A DNA stretch of 64,000 nt. Source: a virus. A program made the position numbers and the translations under genes. Location: IMG/VR virus record IMGVR_UViG_3300050821_009780, positions 79,504 through 143,503 of that record; one strand, given 5' to 3'. The notes beneath the pieces were generated by a model, which worked only from the letters and a program-made list of their open reading frames with translations, had not been told where the DNA came from and ran no database searches. This document shows positions 7,506 to 58,944 of this stretch, one piece after another. Numbering within the stretch: the first letter of the stretch is position 1; every line of letters starts with the position of its first letter.

Positions 7506-8054
7506 CTACCAGTCGCGGTCCCCGCCCGTCGTGTGGTTGGAGTCGTTATTGTGGTGGTGGTCGCCATCCTCGACGCGGATAACACGATGCGGGTGGCTGT
7601 GAGTGCCGTTGAACCGGCCGTGCTCCATGGCGACCGCCTGGGAGGCGGGGGCCTTGCCGGCCAGCCGCATGAACGTCTCGGAGTCGCTCTCGGCTGCCTC
7701 GCGGGCGGGCACCCGGGACAGGAGCAGCTCGCCGCCCTGCAGCGCGGACAGCGCGACCATGGCCTCCTGCACCAGCGCGGACGCCTTGACCTTCTTCTTG
7801 CCTGCGTCCTGGTCCGCCTTGGCGCCCTTGGCCTTCTTCTTGCCGAGCCACGGCGGCTTCTTCTTGCCGCCCTTGGCGTCGTCCTCATCCTCGTCGTCAT
7901 CTTCGTCGTCGCCATCACCGTCGTCGTCCGTGTCGGCGAGCAGCAGCACCAGCTCGTTCAGCCGCTCAGCCGCCGCACGGACCAGCTCCTCGGCATCGTC
8001 GGCCGGGCCGCCCTCGGGGGCGGCGAGCCGCAGAACCTTTTCCAGGGCAGACAA
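7506..8054 (-). CDS. Head-module protein with acidic tract and shared N-terminal motif (182 aa)
   Basis: TTG at 8054 with GGAGG five bases upstream. It opens with SALEKVLRLAA, nearly identical to the start of the 161-residue protein at 9211-9696. Residues about 40-58 are almost pure Asp/Glu, followed by a Lys-rich stretch, then a helical region and a His-rich tail (DGDHHHNNDSNH). The charge pattern recalls scaffold or decoration-type proteins. Not assignable to a family. Confidence 0.55.
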   Translation of the reverse strand: MSALEKVLRLAAPEGGPADDAEELVRAAAERLNELVLLLADTDDDGDGDDEDDDEDEDDAKGGKKKPPWLGKKKAKGAKADQDAGKKKVKASALVQEAMVALSALQGGELLLSRVPAREAAESDSETFMRLAGKAPASQAVAMEHGRFNGTHSHPHRVIRVEDGDHHHNNDSNHTTGGDRDW

Positions 8055-8096
8055 TGAGACCTCCGGTGTCGTTAGCTACGGCTGTCTAATCGCCCT

Positions 8097-9218
8097 CTAC
8101 ATCCGGAGGTTGGGCAGGTAGCCGTTGACCCGCCCGGCGAAGTAGTGGCGCCGCACCCGGTCGATGAGCCGGGCGACCTCGGTGCCGATCTTGCGCCAGG
8201 CGTTAGCCTGGTCCTGGTAGTCCTTCAGCATCTGGGCGAGCGCGCTGCCCTGCTCGGCAGGCGGCACCGCCTGCGCCCCGTAGACGGCGGGCCGACCAGC
8301 CCCGGCATCCTTCTTGCTGGCCGAGTACAGCGCGGACTGGGCCTGGCGCAGGCAGGCGAGGGCCTGGATGACGTCGTTCTTCTCCAGCTTGAGCGCGGCC
8401 ATGCGCAGCGCCTGCCGGACGGTGTTGGACAGCGTGACATCGATGCCGTCGGGCACCAGCTTCACCAGCGCGGTGCACTCCTTCGGCGTCGGCAGCGCCA
8501 CGTGGGGCGGCAGCGGCGGGGACGGGGAGACAGCCTGGCTGGGCACCTGGTGCAGCCCGTACTGGCCGCGCGGGGCGGGCGCGGCCAGCTTCAGCGCCTT
8601 CCAGGCCGGCTCGTCGGTGACCAGCTGCCCGTCCTGCAGCTGCTTGAGCAGCCGGACCCAGCGGCCCTCGCCCGGGTAGTTGTCCACTACGTGCTCGGAC
8701 AGCTTGTCGATGTGCTCCTGCGCGCCCTTCAGGTGCTTGCGGGCGTGGTCGGCGTTGAACTCCCAGACCACCTTCGGGTCCGGCTTGAGCATCTCGTCGG
8801 CGTGCCGCTTGGCGTGCGCCAGCTCGTGCAGCACGGTCTCGGTGAGGTGCGCGGTCGTCGCGATCCGGAGGGACTTGTTCAGCGACCGGGCCAGCCCGAC
8901 GCACTGCCGGACCGCCTCCAGCTCGGCGGCCTCGGCCGGGTAGTGGTGCCGGAGGTCGTCCACCAGGAAGTGCATGTTGTCCAGGGCGACGGACAGGTGG
9001 TTGGCGATGTGCGTCGAGTGGTACTTGCGCAGCTCGGCGGTGCCTGCCTTCAGCGCGGCGGACATCCGCTCCTCCCCGTGCCCCACCGCCCGCACCGTAT
9101 CGTCGATGCGGTGCGCGACGAGCATCTCCCTGGAGTCCTTGTCACCGGGGGTGGCCGGGAGCGGCAGCTTGTCCCGGCCGGGGAAGGGGGAGGCCCCGGG
9201 GAACCCGCGCTCAGCCAT
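8097..9218 (-). CDS. Large helical head-module protein (373 aa)
   Basis: ATG at 9218, overlapping the upstream stop by 8 bases; the longer frame to 9287 is not needed. The protein is mostly alpha-helical and His-rich with a Pro-rich linker near residue 240. It contains HELAH, which matches the HExxH zinc-protease signature, but within a long helical His-rich stretch, so it may be coincidence. Likely a structural or assembly protein from its location between terminase and other head genes. Confidence 0.6.
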   Translation of the reverse strand: MAERGFPGASPFPGRDKLPLPATPGDKDSREMLVAHRIDDTVRAVGHGEERMSAALKAGTAELRKYHSTHIANHLSVALDNMHFLVDDLRHHYPAEAAELEAVRQCVGLARSLNKSLRIATTAHLTETVLHELAHAKRHADEMLKPDPKVVWEFNADHARKHLKGAQEHIDKLSEHVVDNYPGEGRWVRLLKQLQDGQLVTDEPAWKALKLAAPAPRGQYGLHQVPSQAVSPSPPLPPHVALPTPKECTALVKLVPDGIDVTLSNTVRQALRMAALKLEKNDVIQALACLRQAQSALYSASKKDAGAGRPAVYGAQAVPPAEQGSALAQMLKDYQDQANAWRKIGTEVARLIDRVRRHYFAGRVNGYLPNLRM

Positions 9219-11042: not shown

Positions 11043-11745
11043 CAGCCAGGAGGTACCGCTGGGGCGGCGCGTCCGGCAGGTAGCAGCGGGACTGCAGGTC
11101 CTCGAAGGCGGCCGGTGAGCAGTGCGCCCCGCCGTACTGGCCGATGTGCTGGGACCTCGCCAGGTGCGGGTAGACGACCTTCCGGCCCTGCTCCCGGCAC
11201 CAGTAGTCGTTGAGCCGCCAGTCCCAGCCGTTGTGCTCGTAGTTGAACGTCCAGTCGGCGGCCAGCTGCTCCCAGCGGTCGCGCCAGGTGCCCCAGACCC
11301 AGCCGTGAAACTCCTGCTCGACGCTGACGGCGGCGGCCTGCTGCGGGTCTCGCGGGTACTGCCGGTAGGTAGAGACCGCCAGGATGCCTGGGTCAGCGGC
11401 GAACCGCTCACTCGCCCAGGCAAAGTACTCCAGGGTGTCCGCGCCGACCGTGATGTCGTCCTCGGCGAGGATGACGAAATCGTCCGGCTGCGAGTAATCG
11501 GGGAAGGCCCCGAACCCGCAGGTGACGGCGTGGAACGGGTTGGCCTGCACGCCGAGGTGCCTGCTGTTGACGTGCACGGTCACGGACGGCAGGGCCGCCT
11601 CGGCGATGACGCGTTCCATGTGCGGGCAGCCCGGTTCCACGTGGAAGTCCAGGGGCGTGTTCTCGACGCCGCGCACCCGCGCCCAGCTGGCCAGCACCTC
11701 CTGCATGTAGTTGGCCCGACTGAACGCGGTAAAGACGACCCTCAT
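11035..11745 (-). CDS. Glycosyltransferase-like protein, GT-A type (236 aa)
   Basis: ATG 11745 overlaps the upstream stop. It begins with a strand and loop typical of GT-A transferases (MRVVFTAFSRANYMQEVL) and carries ILAEDDI, an acidic DxD-like metal/nucleotide-sugar motif, near residue 100. It is clearly related to the protein at 12407-13135: both share an N-terminal AxNR-like segment, EPGC, a Gln-Ala-Asn/Thr stretch, and a C-terminal DLQSRC/DQVQSRC block. The two look like products of a duplication. Substrate unknown. Confidence 0.7.
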   Translation of the reverse strand: MRVVFTAFSRANYMQEVLASWARVRGVENTPLDFHVEPGCPHMERVIAEAALPSVTVHVNSRHLGVQANPFHAVTCGFGAFPDYSQPDDFVILAEDDITVGADTLEYFAWASERFAADPGILAVSTYRQYPRDPQQAAAVSVEQEFHGWVWGTWRDRWEQLAADWTFNYEHNGWDWRLNDYWCREQGRKVVYPHLARSQHIGQYGGAHCSPAAFEDLQSRCYLPDAPPQRYLLADG

Positions 11746-12410
11746 CACCCGTTCGGCCTCGCAATCTCGGGGGGCGGCCACGGCTCGGTCCACTGCCCGG
11801 CCTCGACCATCTTCCTGGCCTGCTGGAACAGCAGCTCGTCGTACTGCATGCGCCCGCCCTCGGTCATGCCCGCGCCGCGCAGGTGCTGCGCCCAGTGGTG
11901 GGTGAAGCTGTAGCCGGTGCGGAGCCGGGACCGCCAGCCTTGCCGTGACCCTCGGTAGCTGAACCAGTCATCTGTGTAATAATGACAGGTGAGCAGCGGG
12001 ACGATCTTCTCCAGCTGCGCCCGGGACACGAACGGCAGCGCGGTCATGCTGACCTCAGCCCAGTCCCGGCCGACGACGCCGACCTGCGGGCAGGACTGGG
12101 GGTAGCCGTCCGGAGCGTACACCTGCGGGGCGGGCAAGAAGCCGAGGTCGGCGGCCTCGACGGCCGGCTGCGCCCAGCCCGGGTGCGGCTCGATGTCATC
12201 GCAGGTGAAGTGAAAGTACCGGGCACGGGTGCTGGCCCGGTCCAGCCCGGCCTGCCAGGCGGCCCCGCAGGTGGGGTGGTTGCGCTCGATGATGAGGTTC
12301 AGCTCGTAGGCACCGCCGGCGCAGTCACGGTACGCCTGCCAGCAGCGCTCGAAGTGATCTTCCCGGCCATCGACTGTCGGAATTATTACACTGATGACGG
12401 GAAGGCTCAC
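11745..12410 (-). CDS. Family 2-like glycosyltransferase (221 aa)
   Basis: GTG 12410 sits in a GTGA overlap with the upstream stop. The N-terminus VISVIIPTVDGRE is the classic GT2 first strand; FTCDDIEPHPGW near residue 75 holds the metal-binding acidic motif. The C-terminal half has a YYTDDWFSYRG segment and paired His. GT2 enzymes move a sugar from a nucleotide sugar to an acceptor. It belongs to a coupled run of sugar enzymes. Confidence 0.75.
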   Translation of the reverse strand: MSLPVISVIIPTVDGREDHFERCWQAYRDCAGGAYELNLIIERNHPTCGAAWQAGLDRASTRARYFHFTCDDIEPHPGWAQPAVEAADLGFLPAPQVYAPDGYPQSCPQVGVVGRDWAEVSMTALPFVSRAQLEKIVPLLTCHYYTDDWFSYRGSRQGWRSRLRTGYSFTHHWAQHLRGAGMTEGGRMQYDELLFQQARKMVEAGQWTEPWPPPEIARPNG

Positions 12411-13135
12411 GTCTCCTCGATCCACGTGCTGAGGTACCCGCACTCGCGGCGCCCCTTGACCTCGTAGTACTGCTGCGGCGGGTAGTGCTGGCTGAAGCAC
12501 CGCGACTGGACCTGATCGAGCGGGGGCTGCGGCTGGTAGCCGAACTCGCCGATGTCCTGCGCCCGGCTCAGGGCGGGCCGGAGGACGTCGTAACCCCGGC
12601 GCTGGCACCACGCCTGATCGATCCACTGGTACCAGTCCCCGTACCGGGACTCCGCCCAGGCAGCGCTGAGCAGCGCCCACTTCTCCCGGTGGAAGCCGTG
12701 CAGCCAGCCGATGGTCTGGGTACGCCAGACAGCGGCGGGGCCGCCGTCCAGGGCGGTATCGCGCCAGCAGGACAGGGCGAGGACGGTAGGGTCGTCGCGG
12801 TAGTTGTCGCGGTGCCAGGCGTGCAGCTCCAGCGCGTCATCGGAGGGCAGGTAGTCGTCCGAGGCGAGCACGGCGTAGCCCGCCCGGCGGCAGCCGATGT
12901 CCAGCGCCTGCTGGGTATTGCGCGAGGCACCGAGCTGCTTCAGGTTGACATAGACGTACCGCTCGGCGAAGTCCACCGACCAGCACAGCTCCCGCACCTC
13001 CTCGCAGCCAGGCTCGCAACAGAACTGGAGGACGGCATCTTCGATACCGCGGACCTTGGACCAGGCGTCCAGGGTCTGCCGGAGGTAGTCCGGGCGGTTC
13101 CAGGCGGTGAAGGCGACAGCGGTGCGCTCAGCCAC
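12407..13135 (-). CDS. Glycosyltransferase-like protein, paralogue of 11035-11745 (242 aa)
   Basis: GTG 13135 overlaps the upstream stop by 8 bases. It starts TAVAFTAWNRPDYLRQTL, has CCEPGCEE near residue 40 and VLASDDYLPSDD near 90, the probable metal/nucleotide-sugar site, then GWLHGFHREKW and a Cys-containing C-terminal block. Similarity to the protein at 11035 is visible along the whole length, which suggests gene duplication followed by divergence in acceptor or donor specificity. Confidence 0.7.
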   Translation of the reverse strand: MAERTAVAFTAWNRPDYLRQTLDAWSKVRGIEDAVLQFCCEPGCEEVRELCWSVDFAERYVYVNLKQLGASRNTQQALDIGCRRAGYAVLASDDYLPSDDALELHAWHRDNYRDDPTVLALSCWRDTALDGGPAAVWRTQTIGWLHGFHREKWALLSAAWAESRYGDWYQWIDQAWCQRRGYDVLRPALSRAQDIGEFGYQPQPPLDQVQSRCFSQHYPPQQYYEVKGRRECGYLSTWIEET

Positions 13136-17229: not shown

Positions 17230-18356
17230 GGCAGCCTCTCCAGCAGGATGAGCAGGGCCAGCACGGCCTGCCGCGGAACGACCCCGTTGCCGAGGATCTT
17301 CAGCTGGGCGTTGCGGGACAGGCCGTCCACCCCGGTGACCCAGCCCTCCGGCAAGCCGAGCATCCACTCCACGAAGACGGGGGCGAGCACGCGGTTGCCC
17401 TTGCTGCCCGGCTCCAGCGGGTGCGGCACCATCCGGCCGGTGACCTGCTGCCAGCGCAGGACGGCCCGGGAGTACTTGCCCCAGTCCACCACCGGGCCGC
17501 TGCCCAGGTGCTCGGCCAGGCCAGGGAGCAGCAGCTCCCCGCTGCGTGCCCCGGAGCGGTTCCTGTGGCCTCCGGTCACGTCGGCGACCTGCGGGGTGGG
17601 CAGGAGCGCGCCGGCCAGGGTCGGGTTACCGCGCTTGTACGCCAGGCTGCGCCGCTCCCCGTCAGCAGCTGCCGGGGTGGGGAGAAGGCTGCCCCCGGTG
17701 CCCATCATGTCGTTCTCCACCATGATCCGCAGGTCGGTGACCGAGGTGCGGCCCGGCTTCTTGCGCAGGTGGTTCTCCGGGGTGTTCTGGCTGTAGCTGG
17801 CGACCGGGGTGGGCAGCAGCTCGTGCTCGGCCTGGTCGGCGAGAGTGGGGCCGTGGCCGCCGGCCCGGCGCTTATCCGGGTGCTGGCTGCCGCCGTTGAC
17901 GGCGAGCTGCGCGGTGGGGGTCTTCAGCAGACTGACCGCCTCGGGCAGGTCCGCGTCCGCTGCGGTGCGCGCCCGGCCGTCCCTGCGGACCCGGCCCACC
18001 GACACGGTAGGGCCCTTGTGGTCGCTGGCCTGCGGGGTGGGCAGCATGGACAGCGTCTCGATGAGGGTGCCGCCCTCGCGGGCCTTGGCGGGGGTGACCA
18101 GTCCGCCGTTACTGCCCAGCGTCGCCGAGGGCGTCGGGAGCAGCAGGCCATGCGGTGATGAAGATCCGCTCCCGCCGGTGGCAGGACCCGGCATCTGAGG
18201 CGCGTACATTCTGCCATTCCGCATCGTACCCGAGGGTGGAAAGGTCTCCGAGAACAGCTCCGAGTGCCCGCAGAGCATGTCCTGCCCTTTTTCCCAGACA
18301 GATCTCGCAGGATTCCACGTCGCTATGGGCGGAGGCAGAGCATATCCCTCGGACAT
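17211..18356 (-). CDS. C5-cytosine methyltransferase, target-recognition and motif X part
   Basis: 381 residues. The body is built of repeated LLPTPxA-type segments with variable spacers, a pattern of target-recognition regions in this phage methylase group. The C-terminus SRNAQLKILGNGVVP is conserved motif X of C5 methylases, preceded by FVEWMLGLPEGWV. The N-terminal 80 residues overlap the catalytic gene in another frame. ATG 18356 lacks a clear ribosome binding site, so expression could depend on coupling or +1 frameshifting from the upstream frame. Not active alone, since motifs I-VIII are on the other frame. Confidence 0.75.
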   Translation of the reverse strand: MSEGYALPPPIATWNPARSVWEKGQDMLCGHSELFSETFPPSGTMRNGRMYAPQMPGPATGGSGSSSPHGLLLPTPSATLGSNGGLVTPAKAREGGTLIETLSMLPTPQASDHKGPTVSVGRVRRDGRARTAADADLPEAVSLLKTPTAQLAVNGGSQHPDKRRAGGHGPTLADQAEHELLPTPVASYSQNTPENHLRKKPGRTSVTDLRIMVENDMMGTGGSLLPTPAAADGERRSLAYKRGNPTLAGALLPTPQVADVTGGHRNRSGARSGELLLPGLAEHLGSGPVVDWGKYSRAVLRWQQVTGRMVPHPLEPGSKGNRVLAPVFVEWMLGLPEGWVTGVDGLSRNAQLKILGNGVVPRQAVLALLILLERLPWNATN

Positions 18357-19277: not shown

Positions 19278-22200
19278 TTATACGAGCCTGCTGAGGCCGA
19301 CCGCGAAACCGGACGCTCCCAGCTCGTCCCGGCAGCGGGGGCAGTAGTCCATATCGAACACCTCGCCGAGCAGCCCGGCCGGGACGGCGGTGCCGCAGCC
19401 GATGCACACCGGGCGCAGCAGGCTGCCCTGGAGCGGGTCGGCACCGTCGAAGAACGCGAGCCGACGGGCGGTGTAGCGCATAGCATCCACCCAGGACTTC
19501 TTGCCGCACAGCGGAGCGTACGCCTGGTAGGGGCCGAGCTTGCCGTTGAGGATCATGCGCAGCAGCAGCCGATCAGCGTCGCGGACCAGCCAGGCGTCGG
19601 CGATGTGATCCTTGGCGTTGGCCTCCTCGGCGCTCATGCCGGAGTAGAAACTTTCCTGTTTGAGCAGCACCCGCACCTCGGGAGCCTCATCGTAGGCGCG
19701 CAGGGCGGCGGCGAGGGCCTGCTCGCCTCCCGCCACCTCCAGCTCCCAGAAGGATTTGGGGGTCGCCGGAAGCTGGGACTCCTTGGGGTAAAGCATCCAG
19801 CTCTGAAGGGCCAGCCACGGGTCCAGCTCCGCCTTGAACCAGGCGATGAAATTGTTCATCTTGTGCGGCTGACGGGTGAGGCCGAACTCGGCGTAGTCCG
19901 TCCCGGCACTGCGGTCGCGGAACTTGTAGGCATCGCTGACGATGCGGACCGACCGCTTGGCGATGGGCGGGAACCCCTCGGTGTGCTCCTGGGCGCGGTA
20001 GGCGGCGCGGCGGATGGCGAACTTCCAGTGCGCGTTCGACACGAACCGGTGCTTCTCCGACCGTTCGTACCGGAACCGGACCTTGCACGCGACGGTGGTC
20101 TGATCGAGGGGGCGGACCGGCCGGGCCTCCAGGTCGCGGTCGGTCGCCTTGAGGTAGCCCTGGCGGATCTTCAGGTCGGTCTTGTCGCAGCAGCCGCAGG
20201 TGTTGCCGGAGCAGTGCTGGTCGCAGCGGGCAATCCACTCGCTGCCGCGGTAGCTCTCGTCGAACTGCTCGTCGTAGCTCTCGCTGTCGGTTCCCTCCAG
20301 GAACTGCACCATGTGCCGGTAGGCGCCCCACATGAGCTGCTTGGAGACGCCGGTGTCGATGTGCTCCCAGCCGAACAGGTCGTCCTCGCCCATCTCCAGG
20401 AACAGGTCGTCCAGCCCGTTGCGGAACCCGTGGTTCTTCAGCGCGGCGTTGAGCCGGTCCTTCATGTCCTTGGCGACGCCGCCCCAGCAGCCGGCGGCGA
20501 GGTCCTCGATCACGTCGGTGATGGCCTCCCCGGCGTCGCGGCTGGCCCGCTGGCACGCCTGGAACAGGGCGATCTTCTCCGGCTGGGCCTTGCTGCCGAG
20601 CTTCATCTCGATCCGCTGGTCGCGGAGGTCGGCCATGGCCTGCTGGAGGGTGTAGTCGGGGGCGGTGGGGGCGAACCACTGCATGGGGGTCTGCGCCTCG
20701 ATGAGCAGCGGCGTCCAGGAGAACTGGATCCGCACGCCGGGCTGGCCGAGCTGCTCGCGGATCTCTGCCAGCCGCTGGCCGAGCCTGACGATCCGCATGA
20801 CATCCCCCGCTTCCTCGCCGGGCATGTTGGAGATCATGAACAGCTTGACCTTGCGGATGCCGGCCCGGATGGCACGGGTGACGGCCTCCTCGACGTCCTG
20901 GTCGGAGACGCCCTTGCCGATCAGGTCGCGCATCCGCTGGCTGTTGCCCTCCAGGCCGAGGGTGACCGCATCGGTACCGCCGAAAGCGAGCAGCATGGAG
21001 TAATCCGGGTCGCCGATGAAGTCATCTACCCGCATCGCCCCGGTATCCACCTCGTCGGACACCTGCTCCAGCAGCCCGCCGAGCAGCTCCTTCTTGCGGG
21101 TGTACATGGGGAAGTCGGGGCCGTAAGGAGACAACTCGTTCGATCCCATGTTGAGCCGCCACTGCCTGGCCTGCTCGATCAGGTACTCCACGCTGTGCTC
21201 GCGGTAGGGCTTGTCCACGTAGGTGAGGTGGCAGTTCATCGTAAACACGCCGTCCGCCAGCGAGAAGCGGTGCGAACCCGGCACAGTCAGGCAGTAGACC
21301 TCCTGCGGCTTGTCCAGCGGCTCGATGGCCTCAACGCACCACCCGTGCCTTTCCGGCTTGACCAGGGTGTGCTGCATGAGCGGAGCGCTACGCGGCCCGA
21401 AGTTGGTTACGTCGGAACGGCTCTGACAGCAACCGACGTACACCCAGCCTCCCTGCGCAGCGTGTCGCTCCAGCCACTGGCTGGGAGACGTGTCGCCATG
21501 GTGCTGAGCACTGTACTGCGCAGCAAGAACATAAGAGGTCTCCTTAGCACGCAGGGTGCCATCTGCGGCAAGCCAGCCTTCCAGGAACCCAGCTACGTAA
21601 GCGGTATCAACTGCGGGCGAAGGCCATGACTTGACATCGAAGGCGGCCCACCCATAGACCACAACATCACCCTTGGCGTAATCCGGGTTCTGAATGGAAC
21701 TGACCCGGAGGTCAGGGCGGACAGCCCAAGAATCCCGGTCGTCCTGGTCAGGCTGCCAAAACTTCTCGAACCAAGGCCGAACGGCGGCGTCCTTGCCAAA
21801 CAGGCGCACCTTGAAGGAACCCGACAGCACAGGCCGCCGTTCACCGGTAGAGAGCTTCCGCTGGTGGCCGTCCCCGAACAGGAACCCGTGCACCCGGCCG
21901 AGGTCGTAGCTCGACCCGTCGTACTGCACCGAGGCAGCAGCAGCAGGCACAAAGTCTCCAGCCCGTAGCGCATGCGTCTCCGTACCATCTACCAGCTCCC
22001 AGCCATGCGCCGCAGTGGCTGTGACCTGAACCCGATGCGTGGCCTTGGGGTTACGTCGCCAGGCTCCGTTCGCCGTTCCGCAGTCGGCGGGACGGAAGGT
22101 GATGCGCTGCACCGCCTGGACCCCGTGCGACTCTACGGTAGCGCTAGCCCAAGCCGCGCCATCCCAGACCTCAGCCTTCCCGACCCCGTGCAACCAGTCG

Positions 22201-23156
22201 ATGGATGAGATGCCCCACTCGCGAGACAAAACCTGAGTCTCCCCGATCAACGGGAAGCTGCACCAGGCCGGGCAGCCCTTGCCTGCCTCGATGTCCCCCG
22301 CGCCCATGCCCGGGTCGGAGTACAGCAGCGGGGCCTGGGTGTGCGGGGCGGCGCTGTCCAGGTCCTTGACGTACCGCTTCTTGAACCTGACCGCCGGGCC
22401 GCCGAGCGCCGTAGGGCCGGACCACCCGCTCACCAGCTTGGTCGGCTCGGGCAGCCCGCGGTCCTCGTACCTGTAGCCGAACTCCACCTCGCGGGGGAAG
22501 TACAGGAACGGGAACTCCACCGCCAGCATCCGGTAGCACATGGACCGCTCGGCCCGCCACAGGCCGTCCGCCTTCATGTCCGCGATGGCTTCCATGACCA
22601 CCGAGATGCCGGGGTTGCCGGGGGCGTCCTCGGCCTCGCCGAGGAAGACGCAGTCCACTACCGGGGCCATGAACTCGGGGTGGCTCCACGCCTGCCCGCC
22701 GGCCATGACCATGGGGTAGGCACCCGGGTCACCCAGGCGGTCGCGCCAGCGCAGCGGGATGCCACTTACCCGGAGGTACTGGCAGAAGTTGAGCCAGAGG
22801 ACGGTGTAAGAAATAGAAGTAGCGAAGACGTCGAAGTCCTGTACGCCGTGCTTGGTCTCAATCCCGAAGACAGGTAGACCCGCCCGCTCCAGCAGGCGGA
22901 AGTCACGTGGGGTGGCAGGCAGGTAGAAACGGTCACAGAGCGCTCCAGGAGAGTCGTTGACGCACCGGTAGACGACCGGGGTGGAGTTGTTCCCCGCCGC
23001 CTGCATGTACGGCCAGGAGGCCGCCAGGAGCATGCGGACGGACGCCTGGTCCCACGGCTTACGGACGGAGCCCGGCTCGTCGCCCAGGTATGCCTCGGGG
23101 CCGTCCAGCTTCCACAGATTGCCGTCCAGCCAGCGCTGGATATGCCCAGGGTCCAC
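19278..23156 (-). CDS. Radical SAM protein, B12-binding/DUF2344 type, containing an intein
   Basis: 1292 residues from GTG 23156 (AGGA seven bases upstream). Residues 60-190 resemble the N-terminal B12-binding-like domain of TIGR03960-type proteins. The radical SAM motif CxxxCxxC begins at Cys295 and Cys299; the third Cys is residue 642 because a 340-residue intein sits between them. After the intein come EGNSQRMRDLIGKGV (SAM-barrel core), WEHIDTGVSKQLMWGAY, the Cys cluster CDQHCSGNTCGCC, a DUF2344-like region from CKVRFRYERSEKHRF, and a C-terminal zinc ribbon. After splicing about 952 residues remain. Reaction unknown, probably radical modification of RNA or protein. It is unusual cargo for a phage. 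Confidence 0.8.
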   Translation of the reverse strand: MDPGHIQRWLDGNLWKLDGPEAYLGDEPGSVRKPWDQASVRMLLAASWPYMQAAGNNSTPVVYRCVNDSPGALCDRFYLPATPRDFRLLERAGLPVFGIETKHGVQDFDVFATSISYTVLWLNFCQYLRVSGIPLRWRDRLGDPGAYPMVMAGGQAWSHPEFMAPVVDCVFLGEAEDAPGNPGISVVMEAIADMKADGLWRAERSMCYRMLAVEFPFLYFPREVEFGYRYEDRGLPEPTKLVSGWSGPTALGGPAVRFKKRYVKDLDSAAPHTQAPLLYSDPGMGAGDIEAGKGCPAWCSFPLIGETQVLSREWGISSIDWLHGVGKAEVWDGAAWASATVESHGVQAVQRITFRPADCGTANGAWRRNPKATHRVQVTATAAHGWELVDGTETHALRAGDFVPAAAASVQYDGSSYDLGRVHGFLFGDGHQRKLSTGERRPVLSGSFKVRLFGKDAAVRPWFEKFWQPDQDDRDSWAVRPDLRVSSIQNPDYAKGDVVVYGWAAFDVKSWPSPAVDTAYVAGFLEGWLAADGTLRAKETSYVLAAQYSAQHHGDTSPSQWLERHAAQGGWVYVGCCQSRSDVTNFGPRSAPLMQHTLVKPERHGWCVEAIEPLDKPQEVYCLTVPGSHRFSLADGVFTMNCHLTYVDKPYREHSVEYLIEQARQWRLNMGSNELSPYGPDFPMYTRKKELLGGLLEQVSDEVDTGAMRVDDFIGDPDYSMLLAFGGTDAVTLGLEGNSQRMRDLIGKGVSDQDVEEAVTRAIRAGIRKVKLFMISNMPGEEAGDVMRIVRLGQRLAEIREQLGQPGVRIQFSWTPLLIEAQTPMQWFAPTAPDYTLQQAMADLRDQRIEMKLGSKAQPEKIALFQACQRASRDAGEAITDVIEDLAAGCWGGVAKDMKDRLNAALKNHGFRNGLDDLFLEMGEDDLFGWEHIDTGVSKQLMWGAYRHMVQFLEGTDSESYDEQFDESYRGSEWIARCDQHCSGNTCGCCDKTDLKIRQGYLKATDRDLEARPVRPLDQTTVACKVRFRYERSEKHRFVSNAHWKFAIRRAAYRAQEHTEGFPPIAKRSVRIVSDAYKFRDRSAGTDYAEFGLTRQPHKMNNFIAWFKAELDPWLALQSWMLYPKESQLPATPKSFWELEVAGGEQALAAALRAYDEAPEVRVLLKQESFYSGMSAEEANAKDHIADAWLVRDADRLLLRMILNGKLGPYQAYAPLCGKKSWVDAMRYTARRLAFFDGADPLQGSLLRPVCIGCGTAVPAGLLGEVFDMDYCPRCRDELGASGFAVGLSRLV
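21234..22253 (-). other. Class 3-type intein with LAGLIDADG homing endonuclease
   Basis: Residues 302-641 of the radical SAM precursor. The N-terminal residue is Pro (PLIGETQVL), not Cys or Ser. The class 3 WCT triad can be read: Trp in block B (TAAHGW, intein residue 85), Cys in block F (VYCLTVPG, residue 321) and Thr in block G (FTMN, residue 338), with terminal Asn340 and Cys+1. Two LAGLIDADG-like helices, GFLFGDG and AGFLEGWLAADG, mark a homing endonuclease. The +1 Cys is the third iron-sulfur ligand, so the enzyme cannot form its cluster before splicing. Confidence 0.85.
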
Positions 23157-50568: not shown

Positions 50569-50896
50569 CGCTGGCCAGCAGGAAACGGGCGACGGACAGC
50601 TCCTGGGCCAGCCGGTCGCCGGGCTTGAGTGCGCTGTCGCGGTAGCCGCGCTGGTTGGCCTGCTCGGACGGCAGGCCGTCCACGTACATGCGGGCGGCCT
50701 TCAGGGCTTCCCGCCTGGCATCAAACTTCCCCCGGTTCGCGGCCTCGTTCGCCAGGGCCTCGCACTGAACGGCCACGCCGTCCAGCCTTTCCTTCAGGTC
50801 CAGGAGGGCGCTGAACACCGCATCGGGAGGGGCAGTTGCCCTTCTCTCGGCAGCCTGAGCCAGGACCTTCCAGTCCGTTTCCTTCAGCCGGCTCAC
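50558..50896 (-). CDS. Hypothetical helical protein (112 aa)
   Basis: GTG-type start at 50896, in a 4-base overlap with the sigma factor gene. Long charged helices with ALANEAANRGKFDARREAL. Its position directly after a sigma factor is where anti-sigma factors are often encoded, but no similarity is visible. Confidence 0.5.
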   Translation of the reverse strand: MSRLKETDWKVLAQAAERRATAPPDAVFSALLDLKERLDGVAVQCEALANEAANRGKFDARREALKAARMYVDGLPSEQANQRGYRDSALKPGDRLAQELSVARFLLASDER

Positions 50897-51612
50897 GACA
50901 CCGCCTTCACCATGGCGCTGTGCACCGCCAGAACGGTTTCCCTGAGTATCCGCACGGCTTCCTCCTCGGGGATGCCAGCAATTTCCGCCGCCTCGGCGGG
51001 GGACTTGCCGTAGTAGTACCTCAGCACTACTACCGCCTGGGCGGCCGGCGGGCAGGCGGCGACAACGCCAGCGGCCTGCTCCAGCACGGAGCTAACCACC
51101 GCCTGGCTCTCGGTGCCATCCTGCGCAGCCACGTCGTGCGGCTCGGCATCGAGCGACACGGGGCGGGCGGCAACGGCAGCGACGGTGCCGCGGACCTCCT
51201 CGACGGTAAGCCCGGCCCGGCGGGCCAGCTCGGCCTCGTCCAGGCCCAGATCCTGCCCGGAGTCACGGAGCACCTTAGCCCGGGTCCGCACCGACCGGGT
51301 GACCCAGTCCTGGCTGCGGAGCGCATCGAGCATGGCCCCCTTGACCCGGCGAAGGATGTACGCGATAAGGAACTCCGTCGCGGCCGGGCTGTAGCCGTTC
51401 TTCTTGCAGTAGGCGGGCCACTTATTGACCGCCTGCGCCAGGCCGAGCAGGCCCAGCGCGGTCAGCTCGTCCAGCTCCAGGGCGTGCGGCGCCCGCTGGT
51501 ACACCTTCCAGGCCTCGGCCCGCACCTGGGGCATGAAATCCGCTGCCATCTGCTCGACCCGTTTCCTGATCTCCGGGTCGAGCGGTACCTCATCGTCCTG
51601 TTCTCCCACCAC
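50893..51612 (-). CDS. RNA polymerase sigma factor, FliA/WhiG type
   Basis: 239 residues from GTG 51612. Region 2 reads LELDELTALGLLGLAQAVNKW with FLIAYILRRVKGAMLDALRS and DWVTRSVR, the typical FliA/WhiG/SigB order. Region 3 has LDEAELARRAGLTVEEV, and region 4 VVVLRYYYGKSPAEAAEIAG plus the recognition helix IPEEEAVRIL. It would redirect host RNA polymerase to phage promoters. A well-placed extended -10 puts the transcription start on the GTG, so the mRNA may be leaderless. Confidence 0.85.
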   Translation of the reverse strand: MVGEQDDEVPLDPEIRKRVEQMAADFMPQVRAEAWKVYQRAPHALELDELTALGLLGLAQAVNKWPAYCKKNGYSPAATEFLIAYILRRVKGAMLDALRSQDWVTRSVRTRAKVLRDSGQDLGLDEAELARRAGLTVEEVRGTVAAVAARPVSLDAEPHDVAAQDGTESQAVVSSVLEQAAGVVAACPPAAQAVVVLRYYYGKSPAEAAEIAGIPEEEAVRILRETVLAVHSAMVKAVS

Positions 51613-51619
51613 ACAGGAG

Positions 51620-51628
51620 ATTATGCCA
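51620..51628 (-). promoter_or_regulatory. Extended -10 promoter for the sigma factor gene
   Basis: TGGCATAAT on the minus strand is a TGn extended -10. Seven bases later comes the GTG start, giving a leaderless transcript, a common arrangement in actinobacteria. No -35 match, and no Shine-Dalgarno before the GTG. Confidence 0.5.
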
Positions 51629-51640
51629 GGTCAAACCCGG

Positions 51641-51835
51641 CTATACGTGCTCATGCGGGATGCCGAGCAGATCCAGCGCCTGCCCAAGCAGCTCGTCCGG
51701 GTGCATCTCGAACACAGGCTCGAACTCCTGTCCTACGTAGACGCTGGCGTTGTCGTTATCCAGCATCAGCACCAGTCCGCTGAGATGACCAAGCTCGATC
51801 GCGCCCTTGAGCTGGCCCAGGGTCTCGTACCTCAC
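51641..51835 (-). CDS. Hypothetical protein (64 aa)
   Basis: GTG-type start at 51835. Acidic with strand-rich VLMLDNDNASVYVGQEF and a helical end. Overlaps the upstream HTH gene by 4 bases. Confidence 0.5.
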   Translation of the reverse strand: MRYETLGQLKGAIELGHLSGLVLMLDNDNASVYVGQEFEPVFEMHPDELLGQALDLLGIPHEHV

Positions 51836-52344
51836 GGCTGCCTCCCGAACCGGTGCCCGATGTCGTCCCGGTAAGACGGGTCTTTCCGGACCTCCTCGGC
51901 GAACTCCGGGTCGGTCAGCACCCGCTGCAGCTTCTGGGCGTACTCGATGGTGCGCTGCAGCTCCAGGAACCCGTCCTTCAGCTCCTCACCGGACGCCTCC
52001 GCGCTCCTCCGGGCGAAGACGCTGAGCGCGTTGCGGCCCTGCCAGGTGAGCAGGGCGCTGGTGAGCAGGCCGCCCTGGTTGAGGTTCCCGGCGGCCAGGG
52101 CGGTACCGGGCGGGAACTGCAGCTCGCGCCAGCCGCCCGCGCTGCCCGGCTCCGGGTCGGGCTGTTGGCCGGGCTGTTTGCGGGTGACAATGCGGGTGCG
52201 CGCCAGCGAGCTGCTGATGCTGGACTGGGACAGCTGCATGGCTACCCCTATCTGCTTGGTGGTGTAGCCCTTGCGGTACAGGTACCGCGACCACGCGTCC
52301 ATCGCCTCCCGCTGACGGGCGGTGACCCGCTCTCCGGTCGTCAT
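51832..52344 (-). CDS. Helix-turn-helix protein (170 aa)
   Basis: ATG 52344, forming TAATG with the ParB-like gene stop. TTKQIGVAMQLSQSSISSSL near residue 30 is a clear HTH. A Pro/Gln linker and a helical C-terminal domain follow. Pairing with a ParB-like gene is reminiscent of partition or copy-control modules, where the second protein binds DNA. Regulator function likely; target unknown. Confidence 0.65.
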   Translation of the reverse strand: MTTGERVTARQREAMDAWSRYLYRKGYTTKQIGVAMQLSQSSISSSLARTRIVTRKQPGQQPDPEPGSAGGWRELQFPPGTALAAGNLNQGGLLTSALLTWQGRNALSVFARRSAEASGEELKDGFLELQRTIEYAQKLQRVLTDPEFAEEVRKDPSYRDDIGHRFGRQP

Positions 52345-53174
52345 TACCAAGCCAGCTTCCTGTCATCGCGCCGCATGGACTTGTTGTACGTGTCGGCCAG
52401 CAGCTCGGCCAGCACCCGCCAGCGGGTGCCCCTCGTCGTCTTCTCGCGGGTGCGCTTCAGCCAGGACTCGGCGCTGGAGGTGGTAGACAGCCGGGCGGTG
52501 AGCTTTTTCGTATCGATGACGCCCTGGTTCACCTCGATGAGGTGGCCGACCGCGCGGATGAGGGTGCCCTCCCAGCGGGCCCCCGGCTGGTAGTCGTCCG
52601 GCCAGGCGTGCGCCAGGGTCAGCAGCGTCGTCCGCAGCAGCGCCTCGCCCTCCTCGGGGGTGCGCCCGCGTCCGGTGAGGATGGCGGTCAGCGCACGGGC
52701 AGACATGATGCCGGCGGCCGAGGAGTTCGACCCCATGACCAGGCCGATTTCGGCCAGTACCTTGTCCCCGGCCACGACGTACGGGTCGCCGGCGTGCAGC
52801 TGCAGGTCCCAGCGGGCCAGCGCGGAGTGGCCGCGGCGGCCCTGGGCGATGCCCTGCGCGGTCTCGGCCTCGGCGGCGACGGTAGAGACCCCGGTGCGCT
52901 TGACGACCCAGGTGTAGCTGCCGGGACGGGTCTCCTTGAGGCGCAGCACCCGGTGCTGGCCCTCGTTGACGACCAGGACGCCTCCCTTGCGGGCAGAGAC
53001 GGTGGGCACCTCGGCGATATCCCAGTTCCACTCGGCGTGGAAGATCTTGTGCCGGGCCTCGTCCACCTCACGCTGGACGTTCTCGTCGATGACCAGGTCA
53101 TCCACGTTGACCCACAGCATCTCGCGCGGGTCGTCTCCGGTGCCCCTGAACGGGGGCGTAACTACCTTGCCCAT
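52344..53174 (-). CDS. ParB/Srx-domain protein (276 aa)
   Basis: ATG 53174 with GGGAG upstream is chosen; the longer frame enters the promoter. LWVNVDDLVIDENVQREVD and VLVVNEGQHRVL give the ParB/sulfiredoxin core (the latter equals the GxHR box). The C-terminal 150 residues are helical. Such phage proteins range from CTP-dependent DNA clamps to nucleases and transcription regulators. It is the first gene after an operator-bearing promoter. Confidence 0.7.
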   Translation of the reverse strand: MGKVVTPPFRGTGDDPREMLWVNVDDLVIDENVQREVDEARHKIFHAEWNWDIAEVPTVSARKGGVLVVNEGQHRVLRLKETRPGSYTWVVKRTGVSTVAAEAETAQGIAQGRRGHSALARWDLQLHAGDPYVVAGDKVLAEIGLVMGSNSSAAGIMSARALTAILTGRGRTPEEGEALLRTTLLTLAHAWPDDYQPGARWEGTLIRAVGHLIEVNQGVIDTKKLTARLSTTSSAESWLKRTREKTTRGTRWRVLAELLADTYNKSMRRDDRKLAW

Positions 53175-53235: not shown

Positions 53236-54894
53236 CTATGCGCGGGCCACCATCTGCATAAGCCTGCGCGGGCTGACCCGGCTGTAGATCTCTCCGGTGT
53301 CGCCCCAGACCGAGTCGGCGACCCCCTGCTCGCTTTCCATGAGCGGCAGGAAGTCCTCGTCCACCGTGTCCCTGATGAGAAGCTGGTGGAACAGCACCAT
53401 CTGGTGGCGGCTGCCCTGCCGCTGCACCCGGCCGAGGAGCTGGTTCATTCGTTGAGGATTCCAAAGTTGGTCCACGGCGATGAGGTTGCCAGCGACCTGC
53501 AGATTGAGGCTGGCCTCGATGGTCGGGGAGCCGACGAGGACCTGGCAGGCCGGGTCCTCCCAGAACCGGCGGATGCGCTCGTCGCGGACCCCGGCCTGGG
53601 AGTCGGTGCTCCACATGAGCACGTGCCCGGTGCCCTGCTCGTCCAGCCGGGCGGACAGCGCGGCGATGTTCGGCTTGAAGTAGACGAACACGACAACCTT
53701 CTGGTCCGCGAGGTCCCCGGTGATCATGTCCATCACCCAGTCGAGCTTGACGGACACGTCGTTACCGTCGTCGAGCGCGGCGAGGCCGGAGTTGATCTGC
53801 CTAGCGCGGGTAAACGCGGCCCCGGCCTCGACCTGGGTGACCTGCTCGCCGGACTCGCGCAGCCGCCGCAGCGTGCCGGCCTTCAGCTCGGCCATCCGCT
53901 CGGCCTGGGCGGGCAGCAGGTCCAGCCAGACGGTGTTCGGCTGGACTTCGGGCAGCTCCATGTCGTCCAGGTCGGCAACGGTGCGGCGCAGCACCATCGG
54001 GGCGACCAGGCGGCGGAACTCGGGCAGGTACGCCTCCTTGACCCCGCTGTCCAGCCAGATGACGACCTTCTTGCGGCGGCGGCCGGTCGGGTCGCGCTTG
54101 TCCCGGACCCACAGGATGCGCCGGGAGCGGGCCACGTACCGCTGGGTGAACGCGGCGGCGGAGCCGAACACCTCCCGGCCGCCGACCGGCTCCAGGAAGT
54201 AGTAAAGCTCCTTCAGCCGCTTCTGCAGCGGGGTGCCGTGCACGCCGTAGACCCGGCTGGCGGTGGAGGCGAGCCGCTTGACCGCGTAGGCGGTGCGGGT
54301 GCTGCCGTTGCGCATGGCATCCAGGTCGTCGTAGACGACGATGCCGACCGGGAACTCGCGCAGCCGCTCCACGTCGCCGTCGCGGGCGCCGCGCTGACCG
54401 GGGCGCCCGGCGGGAGACAGGGTGCGATCGGAGACGACGCAGACCTCCCACCCGCCGAGGTAGGTGCGCAGCCGCTCGGCGGCGGTGCCGTCCCCGGTGA
54501 CCACCTGGACCTCCGGCAGCAGGCGGCGCAGCTCGGCGGCCCACTGGCGGACGGCGGCGGCGCGACAGACGACCACCGCGCGGTTGTGCAGGCCCAGCTC
54601 GCCGGTCTCCTTGGCCAGCGCGAGGACCGCCGCCACCTGCCCGGTCTTGCCGAGGCCGACCGAGTCTCCCAGCAGGCCCCGCATCCGGACCCACATCCAC
54701 GCGGTGCCGGTGCGCTGGTGGCGGCGGAGCCGGATGCCGCACCGGCGGCAGCCCGGGTCTAGCTCCCGGTGGGCGTCGCACGGGGCGGAGTTGAAGTAGC
54801 GGAACTCGCGGTGCGGCACGTTCGCGGTGCGGACGCGGGACGCGACGGCTTCGCGCTGCGCCGGGGTGAGGCGGCGCGGGTCGGCCGGGGGCAC
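53236..54894 (-). CDS. SNF2-family DNA helicase/translocase
   Basis: 552 residues. Motif I GDSVGLGKTGQ, motif II VYDDLDAM (variant of DEAH), motif III GVHGTPLQKRL, motif IV-V FVYFKPNIAALSARL and SLNLQVAGNLIAVDQLWNP, and motif VI GRVQRQGSRHQ are in order, all of the SNF2 C-terminal style. The N-terminus has a zinc-like CDAHRELDPGCRRCG. No nuclease domain is attached. Likely a dsDNA translocase used in replication restart or regulation. Confidence 0.85.
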   Translation of the reverse strand: MPPADPRRLTPAQREAVASRVRTANVPHREFRYFNSAPCDAHRELDPGCRRCGIRLRRHQRTGTAWMWVRMRGLLGDSVGLGKTGQVAAVLALAKETGELGLHNRAVVVCRAAAVRQWAAELRRLLPEVQVVTGDGTAAERLRTYLGGWEVCVVSDRTLSPAGRPGQRGARDGDVERLREFPVGIVVYDDLDAMRNGSTRTAYAVKRLASTASRVYGVHGTPLQKRLKELYYFLEPVGGREVFGSAAAFTQRYVARSRRILWVRDKRDPTGRRRKKVVIWLDSGVKEAYLPEFRRLVAPMVLRRTVADLDDMELPEVQPNTVWLDLLPAQAERMAELKAGTLRRLRESGEQVTQVEAGAAFTRARQINSGLAALDDGNDVSVKLDWVMDMITGDLADQKVVVFVYFKPNIAALSARLDEQGTGHVLMWSTDSQAGVRDERIRRFWEDPACQVLVGSPTIEASLNLQVAGNLIAVDQLWNPQRMNQLLGRVQRQGSRHQMVLFHQLLIRDTVDEDFLPLMESEQGVADSVWGDTGEIYSRVSPRRLMQMVARA

Positions 54895-56599: not shown

Positions 56600-56628
56600 A
56601 GAGTAGATCTGCGGTGATCCCCTGTCAA
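56600..56628 (-). promoter_or_regulatory. Promoter of the holin-like gene
   Basis: -35 TTGACA (56628-56623, perfect consensus), 17-base spacer, -10 TACTCT (56605-56600). It lacks the right half of the phage operator, unlike the other promoters. The TGA of the -35 is the stop codon of the upstream 57-residue gene. Leader length to the TTG start is about 87 bases. Confidence 0.7.
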
Positions 56629-57591: not shown

Positions 57592-57777
57592 CTAATCGCC
57601 GAGCAGCTCTTCGGCCACCCACTCGACGAACCCGGCCTCGCCATCGTCCTCTTCCCAGAGGAAAGACAGGCCGCCCGGGCCGTTGACGGGCGCCCACCCG
57701 GCCAGGGCGCGGTCGGAGGGCTGCTGGTAGAACAGCAGCCAGACAGCGGCAGCCGTCAGGTCCAGGGGATCGCTCAC
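57592..57777 (-). CDS. DRALAGW-motif protein (61 aa)
   Basis: GTG-type start at 57777. LLFYQQPSDRALAGWAPVNG aligns with LLCWLQPTDRALAGWCPADG of the protein at 58582-58944, so the two are paralogues. Acidic C-terminus (FVEWVAEELLGD) has its match there too (LFVQWLSSTYG). Function unknown. Confidence 0.6.
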   Translation of the reverse strand: MSDPLDLTAAAVWLLFYQQPSDRALAGWAPVNGPGGLSFLWEEDDGEAGFVEWVAEELLGD

Positions 57778-57784
57778 GGCCCTG

Positions 57785-58054
57785 CTACGGCTCCCGGAAG
57801 AAGATCCCCCGCAGGGCCTCGGCGAAGCCCTGAGCGGCCTTGGTGAGGTTCGCCGGATCGTACTCGGCGTCCAGCTTCCCCTCGCCGTTCTCGAACACCT
57901 TCAGCAGCACCGTGCGGCTGTCGCGGGCCATGATGACGATACTGGCCGCCGGAGGCGGGCAGAGGTTCGCGGCGGTCACGGACCCGGCGTATGCCGGATT
58001 CCCGGAAACGGACAGCTCGCTATCGCGCAGGCTGTACGGCTCGTCGCCCCTCAC
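57785..58054 (-). CDS. Hypothetical protein (89 aa)
   Basis: GTG 58054 in a GTGA overlap. SIVIMARDSRTVLLKVFENG is a strand pair, followed by an acidic helix. No family recognised. Confidence 0.5.
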   Translation of the reverse strand: MRGDEPYSLRDSELSVSGNPAYAGSVTAANLCPPPAASIVIMARDSRTVLLKVFENGEGKLDAEYDPANLTKAAQGFAEALRGIFFREP

Positions 58055-58317
58055 GCCGGGGGCGCCCAGTCGATGAGGCCGCGCCCGCCGTCGCCGACCT
58101 CGACCGCGAAGCCGGTCATGGGCGGCAGGACGTCGCACTCGATCTGGTAGGTGAGCGCGGGATCGACGTCCTGCACCGGGCGGGCGGCCCAGTAGGCCAC
58201 GGTGCCCTTCTTCGTCTGGCGGTCGCGGCCGGGGGCGCGGACCAGCTCGCACTCGACGGCGGTGCCGTCGGCGAACCGCAGCCGGACTCCGCCGGGGGCT
58301 GTCTGGGTGTCGCTCAT
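58051..58317 (-). CDS. Hypothetical strand-rich protein (88 aa)
   Basis: ATG 58317 with AAAAAGGAG upstream, a strong ribosome binding site. Beta-rich with VRLRFADGTAVECELVRAPG and VDPALTYQIECDV. First gene downstream of the repeat cluster, so it may be transcribed from it. Not assigned. Confidence 0.55.
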   Translation of the reverse strand: MSDTQTAPGGVRLRFADGTAVECELVRAPGRDRQTKKGTVAYWAARPVQDVDPALTYQIECDVLPPMTGFAVEVGDGGRGLIDWAPPA

Positions 58318-58426
58318 CACGTCTCCTTTTTATCTTCCTGCTCCGTGTGTATCACCCCCGGCGGGCCGGAGCCGCCGGGAGACCTTCCCCCGGCCGTTTC
58401 GCCGGGACGCGCGGGTGGTGCCGTGC

Positions 58427-58594
58427 ACTGCTGACGTAACTGGTAGGTACCAGGCAGCTTACTGCTGACGTCAGCAGTTACGGTGTGATGCTGACCTGTA
58501 ACGTCAGCGGTTAGCACTTCGGCTGCACCTGAATGTGTGCTGATGACGTCAGCAGTCAGTGCAGTATGCTGACTAGTTACGTTACAGGTCAGCA
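58427..58594. repeat. Cluster of TGCTGAC/GTCAGCA repeats (candidate origin, centromere or operator array)
   Basis: This 170-base stretch is the AT-richest part of the region and holds at least five direct TGCTGA(C) copies (near 58428, 58462, 58489, 58538, 58567) and four inverted GTCAGC copies (near 58470, 58503, 58549, 58588). Several form GCTGACGTCAGC palindromes. GCTGACCTGTAACGT at about 58490 and ACGTTACAGGTCAGC at about 58578 are a 15-base inverted pair. No credible gene covers it. Iteron-type origins, parS-like sites and multi-operator promoters all look like this. Confidence 0.7.
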
Positions 58595-58944
58595 CTGTGC
58601 GGGTCCGTCCTGGCCGCCTCGGACCGGCGGCTCACCTGGCAGTGGCCGTCCCGGGCGACCGCCGCCATGTCCTGCCGCTCGGTGGACCGGGTCTCCAGCT
58701 GCGGGCCGTAGGTGGAGGACAGCCACTGCACGAACAGGTCCTCCGCGTACGGGTGGCTGCCCCCGGAACCGGGGGCGTACCGCCAGCCGTCGGCCGGGCA
58801 CCAGCCCGCCAGCGCGCGGTCCGTGGGCTGCAGCCAGCACAGGAGCAGCAGCCCGGCCCCCGAGGGGGACAGCACGGCCGGGAGCGGGTGCAGCGGCTCC
58901 ACGGGGCCGCAGGGGGCCTCTCCGGGCCGCTCAGCGTCCGTCAC
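58582..58944 (-). CDS. DRALAGW-motif protein, long form (120 aa)
   Basis: GTG 58944. The core LLLCWLQPTDRALAGWC matches the 61-residue protein at 57592-57777, with extra N- and C-terminal arms. The C-terminal part (ARDGHCQVSRRSEAARTD) is basic. Its stop codon TAA is inside the repeat cluster, so the array begins where the gene ends. Confidence 0.55.
   Translation of the reverse strand: MTDAERPGEAPCGPVEPLHPLPAVLSPSGAGLLLLCWLQPTDRALAGWCPADGWRYAPGSGGSHPYAEDLFVQWLSSTYGPQLETRSTERQDMAAVARDGHCQVSRRSEAARTDPHSADL

Follow-up and report, generated by a model that had tools for sequence, protein, structure and literature searches.

The analysed window of 64,000 nucleotides comprises bases 79504–143503 and forms the right end of a 143,503-base IMG/VR contig with 69% G+C, i.e., 31% A+T. 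The source is a large uncharacterised actinobacterial virus, in the contig of which 189 genes were called with a simple custom gene finder, 184 of them on the minus strand. Coordinates are those of the window except where the contig is named. Five imperfect palindromes of 28 bp each were found at positions 58422–58594, in a 264-bp gap between two co-directional genes. The genes considered around this array are the following.

52344..53174, minus strand: ParB-like/DUF6551 protein (PHROG 1033, E=7.9e-9; PF20188, E=3.8e-9), without ParB_N
53236..54894, minus strand: helicase gene, with which the conserved genes of the replication block begin downstream of the array
58051..58317, minus strand: first gene downstream of the array, 88 aa, with a AAAAAGGAG-type ribosome site
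58582..58902, minus strand: upstream gene, 106 aa as called, with its stop codon within site 5

The 88-aa gene starts about 105 bp from the array, and no Pfam family was found for its product at E≤0.1; the upstream gene resembles by eye the 61-aa gene 57592–57777. After the gap, eight small co-directional genes run leftward (58317→56625) into the helicase/replication block. A sigma-factor-like gene, at most 44% identical to relatives, is also located in this block (50893–51549, minus strand). Elsewhere on the minus strand of the window, a 1292-aa radical-SAM gene (19278–23156) encodes the domains Radical_SAM_N2 and Radical_SAM with an intein-like stretch between them (by eye), and a 732-aa protein of imperfect SDTGHGTDAGE-type repeats is encoded at the contig end (61762–63960).

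The five sites, aligned on the common core TNACGTNA, are similar over 28 bp. They are given below as heptads, with scores from a weight matrix that was built from the five sites and scanned over the contig.

58422..58449: site 1, the weakest; CGTGCAC TGCTGAC / GTAACTG GTAGGTA; 26.2 bits, ranking fifth in the contig
58456..58483: site 2; AGCTTAC TGCTGAC / GTCAGCA GTTACGG; 30.8 bits
58489..58516: site 3; TGCTGAC CTGTAAC / GTCAGCG GTTAGCA; 34.5 bits
58534..58561: site 4; TGTGTGC TGATGAC / GTCAGCA GTCAGTG; 29.0 bits
58567..58594: site 5; TGCTGAC TAGTTAC / GTTACAG GTCAGCA; 34.9 bits, the contig's best
58462–58518 and 58540–58596: tandem duplication; two 57-nt copies with 74% identity, shifted by 78 bp

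Each site is represented by four abutting heptads in the order → → ← ←. The pattern NNNTNAC, the best form of which is TGCTGAC, is fitted by 17 of the 20 heptads, namely, by all four in sites 2, 3 and 5, three in site 4 and two in site 1. Invariant in each half-site are T at −4, A at −2 and C at −1, as well as C at −8. The fit in site 1 is confined to the two inner heptads, and its centre is TGACGTAA; site 2 contains the sole exact TGCTGACGTCAGCA; in site 3, the outer heptads are strong and the inner ones weaker. The site centres (58435.5, 58469.5, 58502.5, 58547.5 and 58580.5) are spaced by 34, 33, 45 and 33 bp. Sites 2 and 3 are repeated as sites 4 and 5 by the 78-bp duplication, in which the 33-bp spacing and the dyads are kept and the spacers have diverged. 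Spacings of 33–34 and 45 bp correspond to 3.1–3.2 and 4.3 turns (10.5 bp per turn), so the five sites do not all lie on one helix face.

The iteron-like heptamer cluster described in the first-pass annotation is real, but what is repeated, in five copies, is a dyad of 28 bp that comprises four heptads. "Nine or so" heptamers had been counted; positions 58427–58594 contain seven exact copies of TGCTGAC/GTCAGCA and eight of GCTGAC/GTCAGC. The "several" GCTGACGTCAGC palindromes come down to one exact copy (58464–58475), the others being near-copies (GATGACGTCAGC, 58542–58553) or having TNACGTNA alone in common. The inverted pair is present at a length of 16 bp, rather than the 15 reported, and is perfect (TGCTGACCTGTAACGT at 58489–58504, complement at 58579–58594); its arms belong to the left half of site 3 and to site 5, and it is embedded in 28-nt arms (82%). 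The gap can be called AT-rich in a relative sense only, with 48% A+T versus 31% for the contig.

Analysis of the whole contig showed that the array is unique in it. The matrix gave 26.2–34.9 bits for the five sites and 15.5 bits for the next place in the contig. With leave-one-out matrices, every site was still 4th or 5th of 143,476 positions, beside the other four, and with the core positions omitted, the left-out sites ranked 4th to 69th of 143,476. The TNACGTNA core has 11 copies contig-wide, five of them in the array, and the heptamer TGCTGAC/GTCAGCA has 43; outside the array, no 170-bp bin contains more than two. In 5,000 dinucleotide shuffles of the same 168 bp, no more than three heptamers and two TNACGTNA cores were obtained and inverted repeats scored at most 25, versus seven, five and 66 observed; no other 180-bp stretch of the contig matches the array in inverted repeats (66; runner-up 30). 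An isolated site-like sequence at contig position 12940, next to another hairpin, scored only 11.5 and was set aside.

In phage and plasmid collections, similar DNA was represented by short chance matches only. No counterpart of the array was found in 2.24 Mb of related phages at the threshold used, with the exception of one other inverted-repeat-rich spot (L176:7501), which is terminator-like by eye and was rejected. When 2.9 million viral contigs and the genomes of ~85,000 prokaryote species were scanned by pattern, no second array was found. The exact 14-mer TGCTGACGTCAGCA was present in 86 stretches of viral contigs, of which 80 loci were scored and contained no comparable array; a dense GCTGAC run was observed in one of the TGCTGACGTCAGCA loci, L111. 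Two-site pattern matches, six in viral contigs and 71 in genomes, were scored by the matrix, and none of these loci had three or more sites; a Prevotellaceae match among them (L239) was an unrelated tandem repeat.

These searches bear on a group of explanations in which the array is a resolvase-type recombination site, a target or decoy of a regulator of the host, or a palindromic mobile repeat that has recently expanded. Tandem 28-bp dyads are reminiscent of resolvase subsites, and the array does contain duplicated units. However, no second copy was found in the contig beyond self-matches, the pattern-scan loci of genomes and viruses contain no array of such sites, and the resolvase or serine recombinase that would accompany a res site had no match in the contig (PF07508, PF00239; the contig may be incomplete). 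We consider this group very unlikely.

A 92-residue frame crosses the array, and its translation and conservation, if shown, had been named beforehand as a ground for abandoning the repeats as a functional site. This frame was rejected as coding because of its codon use: its codon score is −35.5 versus +25 to +36 for the neighbouring genes, and GC3 is 0.46 in the array versus 0.87–0.97 in the neighbours. A weak PHROG match of the frame (E=0.016) was treated as chance. The array stretch is non-coding, and no tRNA was found in the window.

Among sequenced phages, Microbacterium phage Magritte is the nearest, a distant relative with identities of 43% for terminase, 35% for helicase (Magritte gene 46) and 32% for DNA polymerase. 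Relatives gathered via the terminase match, and read whole or in part, share structural and replication genes with the contig and are distant (~30–55% amino-acid identity across most shared genes). The helicase is ~40–47% identical in relatives and has a match in all 12 genomes compared. Among the called genes to the right of it, no match was found in the 12 relatives, with the exception of a weak match of gene 55406 in three relatives; accordingly, the array sits in a variable arc that immediately precedes the conserved replication block with respect to transcription. No close relative was found in viral contigs by searches with the helicase or gene 59345, and the absence of the repeats from relatives, proposed for close ones as counter-evidence to their function, holds for the distant relatives only.

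Several other features of the contig were annotated. The variable arc includes the gene of an AAA_25 ATPase (contig 11179–12282, minus strand; E=4e-31), unmatched in the 12 relatives and possibly a second replication helicase, as well as a 1.4-kb gap without called genes (contig 7645–9024), in which some stretches resemble promoters or are palindromic, such as TGTGTACCGCTTACAGTTACAGTTCACA at 7663. A phage Sortase-domain protein (PF04203, E=5.7e-21) is encoded at contig 17377–18039 (minus strand).

The recognisable promoter type of the contig is TTGACT-N17-TANNCT, the seed promoters of which score 13.8–24.7 (seven of the eight at least 19.9; the eighth, with a 16-bp spacer, 13.8). No promoter of this type was recognised inside the array, where the best scores are 8.7 and 5.6, and the next recognised minus-strand promoter after the array is at 56628. 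The lower of the two scores belongs to the following pair.

58563..58592, minus strand: weak promoter-like pair CTGACC-N18-CATACT, score 5.6

Its designation as a promoter-like element is speculative; such weak pairs in the array would be compatible with a promoter that is repressed or depends on an activator, and by themselves they are no evidence of one.

A dispersed operator-like palindrome, CTTGGCTNNAGCCAAG / TTGACTYRAGCCAAG, was found at 19 places at ≤2 mismatches, 18 of which are intergenic (intergenic DNA makes up ~12% of the contig). Overlap with the −35 of TTGACT-N17-TANNCT promoters is frequent, as are pairs of the palindrome 22–31 bp apart. The sites, together with a regulator gene preceded by one such pair, are listed below.

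Window 4230, 5168, 33896, 33919, 45550, 47249 and 53220: dispersed palindrome (weaker: 53197 and 59341)
Contig 11185, 12386, 12898, 12926, 13322, 51310, 59845, 64024, 67457, 67487, 67814 and 67845: dispersed palindrome
Contig 51412–51855, plus strand: XRE/HTH_31 regulator gene, E=3e-12
Contig 51852–52334, plus strand: gene after the XRE regulator, membrane-protein-like by eye

None of the intergenic sites of this family at ≤3 mismatches lies within the array, and the family looks like a phage-wide operator system separate from it. The pair of palindromes is located ~100 bp upstream of the XRE regulator gene, the product of which is a candidate master repressor. The two genes are rare plus-strand genes, and no relative was found in phage records.

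The array is almost certainly a genuine docking array; in-register dyads, invariant T, A and C, and a duplication with kept dyads and diverged spacers typify sites of dimeric or oligomeric proteins. An operator, origin or centromere, taken jointly, is a probable function; a gene-control switch is most likely, and a replication or segregation site less likely. The main reading, to which we assign a probability of about 0.45, is a single-locus multi-operator array for a putative dimeric DNA-binding protein. Several register-conserved dyad sites lie in a gene-proximal non-coding gap, and control of the leftward small genes is favoured because the array fills the 264-bp gap before the gene run starting at 58317. 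Judged by position and site architecture only, operator control fits best; protein binding, co-operativity and regulation at the array are what we infer, and the sites, with their register, spacing, duplication, uniqueness, position and lack of coding, are what was observed.

Under operator control, the five 28-bp operators would constitute a cis-acting array binding several copies of one multimeric sequence-specific protein, which would be phage-encoded or, less likely, host-encoded. The four abutting heptads of each operator (core T-N-A-C) could provide room for two dimers or four small ones, and with operators 33–34 bp apart, ~170 bp might be filled co-operatively. Occupation of the array would lead to repression of the small genes 58317→56625, or to their expression by activation of a weak promoter; control of transcription would be its simplest effect, because the array fills a gap between co-directional genes. 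No matches to RHH_1 (PF01402), TetR_N, ParB_N or resolvase were found in the contig, and no candidate binder came from these families. A candidate RHH protein of 70 aa (contig 6518–6730) was not supported, its model being of low confidence (pLDDT 67) and without a structural match.

In addition to the negative searches for a binder, three points stand against the operator reading. Promoter control elsewhere seems to use the dispersed CTTGGCTNNAGCCAAG family, and a second operator type at a single locus needs a special reason; a strong promoter is not visible at the array; and the linkers pair above chance with the repeats fixed (z −2.6), which is not predicted by a pure operator array. A rival reading is a structured nucleic-acid element with two long hairpins, which would either act as RNA (leader, processing site or small RNA) or be extruded as hairpins of DNA.

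58421..58484: potential hairpin 1; sites 1 and 2 contribute the arms, with CTGGTAGGTACCAG and GCAGCTTACTGC stem-loops between them
58489..58594: potential hairpin 2; sites 3 and 5 contribute the arms, with site 4 apical; RNA and DNA folds

Hairpin 1 is based on RNA folds, with a DNA fold z of −6.0 (plus strand) and −7.1 (minus strand). Overall, the folding z is about −6 on both strands, and sites 3 and 5 are joined by the 16-bp perfect stem. When the 17 fitting heptads were fixed and the remaining bases shuffled 400 times, the real energy had a z of −2.6 on either strand, and 3–4 of the 400 shuffles were as low. However, most of the stability comes from the palindromic repeats (mean −84 of −94 kcal/mol, plus strand), hairpins need neither in-register 28-bp dyads nor invariant T, A and C, the array has no Rfam family match, and no homologues were found. 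We regard the structured element as distinctly unlikely; the excess folding may have been left by an inverted duplication or reflect a real structural role.

The location of the array beside the helicase/replication block, its confinement to a single locus and its place in the half-percent of the contig with the highest A+T content raise the possibility of a replication origin, in which the five dyads would be iterons for a phage initiator loading the phage DnaB-like helicase. Dyad iterons are also known from ori-lambda, where O dimers bind inverted-repeat iterons (PMC5043065). Tandem repeats at a single locus are indeed present, and initiator binding is putative. A lambda-type origin is weakened because no strongly A+T-rich segment adjoins the array, no initiator-like gene was recognised next to it and no equivalent array was found in relatives with common replication genes. 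No A+T-rich unwinding element was found next to the array: the best 50 bp, with 54% A+T, lies inside it, and 411 contig windows equal or exceed this value. No initiator family was recognised among the proteins scanned, a subset of the contig's 189. The GC-skew check suggested in the first-pass annotation was uninformative, giving no clear origin signal because nearly all genes are on one strand. We consider an origin rather unlikely.

Finally, the array could serve an extrachromosomal prophage as a parS-like centromere to which a small protein of ParB type binds; we consider this reading very improbable. The heptad architecture matches the four-heptad unit of pSM19035 parS (PMC9499535), actinophages with parABS in place of integrase exist (PMC7157519), and the phage-wide operator family and XRE-type regulator hint at repressor control. 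However, partition is weakened because no ParA, ParB_N, integrase or serine recombinase was found in the contig, which may be incomplete. ParA (PF13614) was not found, with 14 of 14 controls positive, nor was a centromere-binding ParB of HTH or RHH type (PF02195, PF01402), nor an integrase (PF00589), and the DUF6551 protein (52344..53174), judged by sequence, is not a canonical ParB, being ParB-like by its PHROG label only. The lack of integrase and serine recombinase is neutral for an extrachromosomal prophage, yet gives no sign of lysogeny. An origin, partition site or multi-operator region, as originally proposed, remains the right class for one-of-a-kind, non-coding, regular dyads beside replication genes, within which partition and a lambda-type origin have lost ground. 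A new combined operator and origin/centromere locus, with an unrecognised small phage protein family as the binder, is quite improbable; it would be represented by five four-heptad dyads in a large actinophage without identified Par or integration genes.

In large actinophages of lytic appearance, origins and master control sites have for the most part not been mapped. The array is a defined target for testing replication start or early-gene switching in such phages, and since it is an unambiguous, single copy of 170 bp in which the code of the sites can be read, it can serve as bait for fishing out the DNA-binding protein.

Among known systems, the consensus bacterial parS, GTTTCAC/GTGAAAC, is a 14-bp two-heptad dyad that shares T at −4, A at −2 and C at −1 with the inner heptads of the array; other positions differ, and the likeness is a lead only. 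Similar to ori-lambda, several inverted-repeat sites are arranged in tandem at one locus near replication genes (PMC5043065), but ori-lambda has four 19-bp dyads instead of five 28-bp dyads, and the array lacks its 40-bp A+T-rich element and is not within an initiator gene. The parS-L and parS-R sites of RedRock-type mycobacteriophages are also repeat clusters in actinophages (PMC7157519). Each of them contains an 8-bp motif repeated directly eight times, and the phages encode parA/parB, whereas the array consists of palindromes without parA. Operators/stoperators of cluster A mycobacteriophages are phage repressor sites in actinophages as well (PMC6550527), but they are 13-bp sites spread genome-wide, in contrast to a single locus of 28-bp dyads; their nearer analogue in the contig is the dispersed CTTGGCTNNAGCCAAG family.

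The working unit of the omega protein of plasmid pSM19035 is represented by four heptads in the order → → ← ← with the core TCAC (WATCACW), and these heptads overlap promoters (PMC9499535). The array resembles this parS in its contiguous 7-bp units, direct and inverted, upstream of genes, and T-C-A-C fits T-N-A-C (PMC9499535); in sites 2, 3 and 5, four heptads in an unbroken row have a TCAC-like core. Unlike the 7–10 unbroken heptads of pSM19035, the sites of the array are separated by 5–17 bp, the heptad sequence differs, and the array is a single locus. Membership in the omega system is not supported, because no ParA or RHH_1 match was found in the contig, and the likeness is one of architecture. 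Ordinary operator control, if shown, would still make the array a clean model of operators built from heptads beyond the plasmids of Firmicutes.
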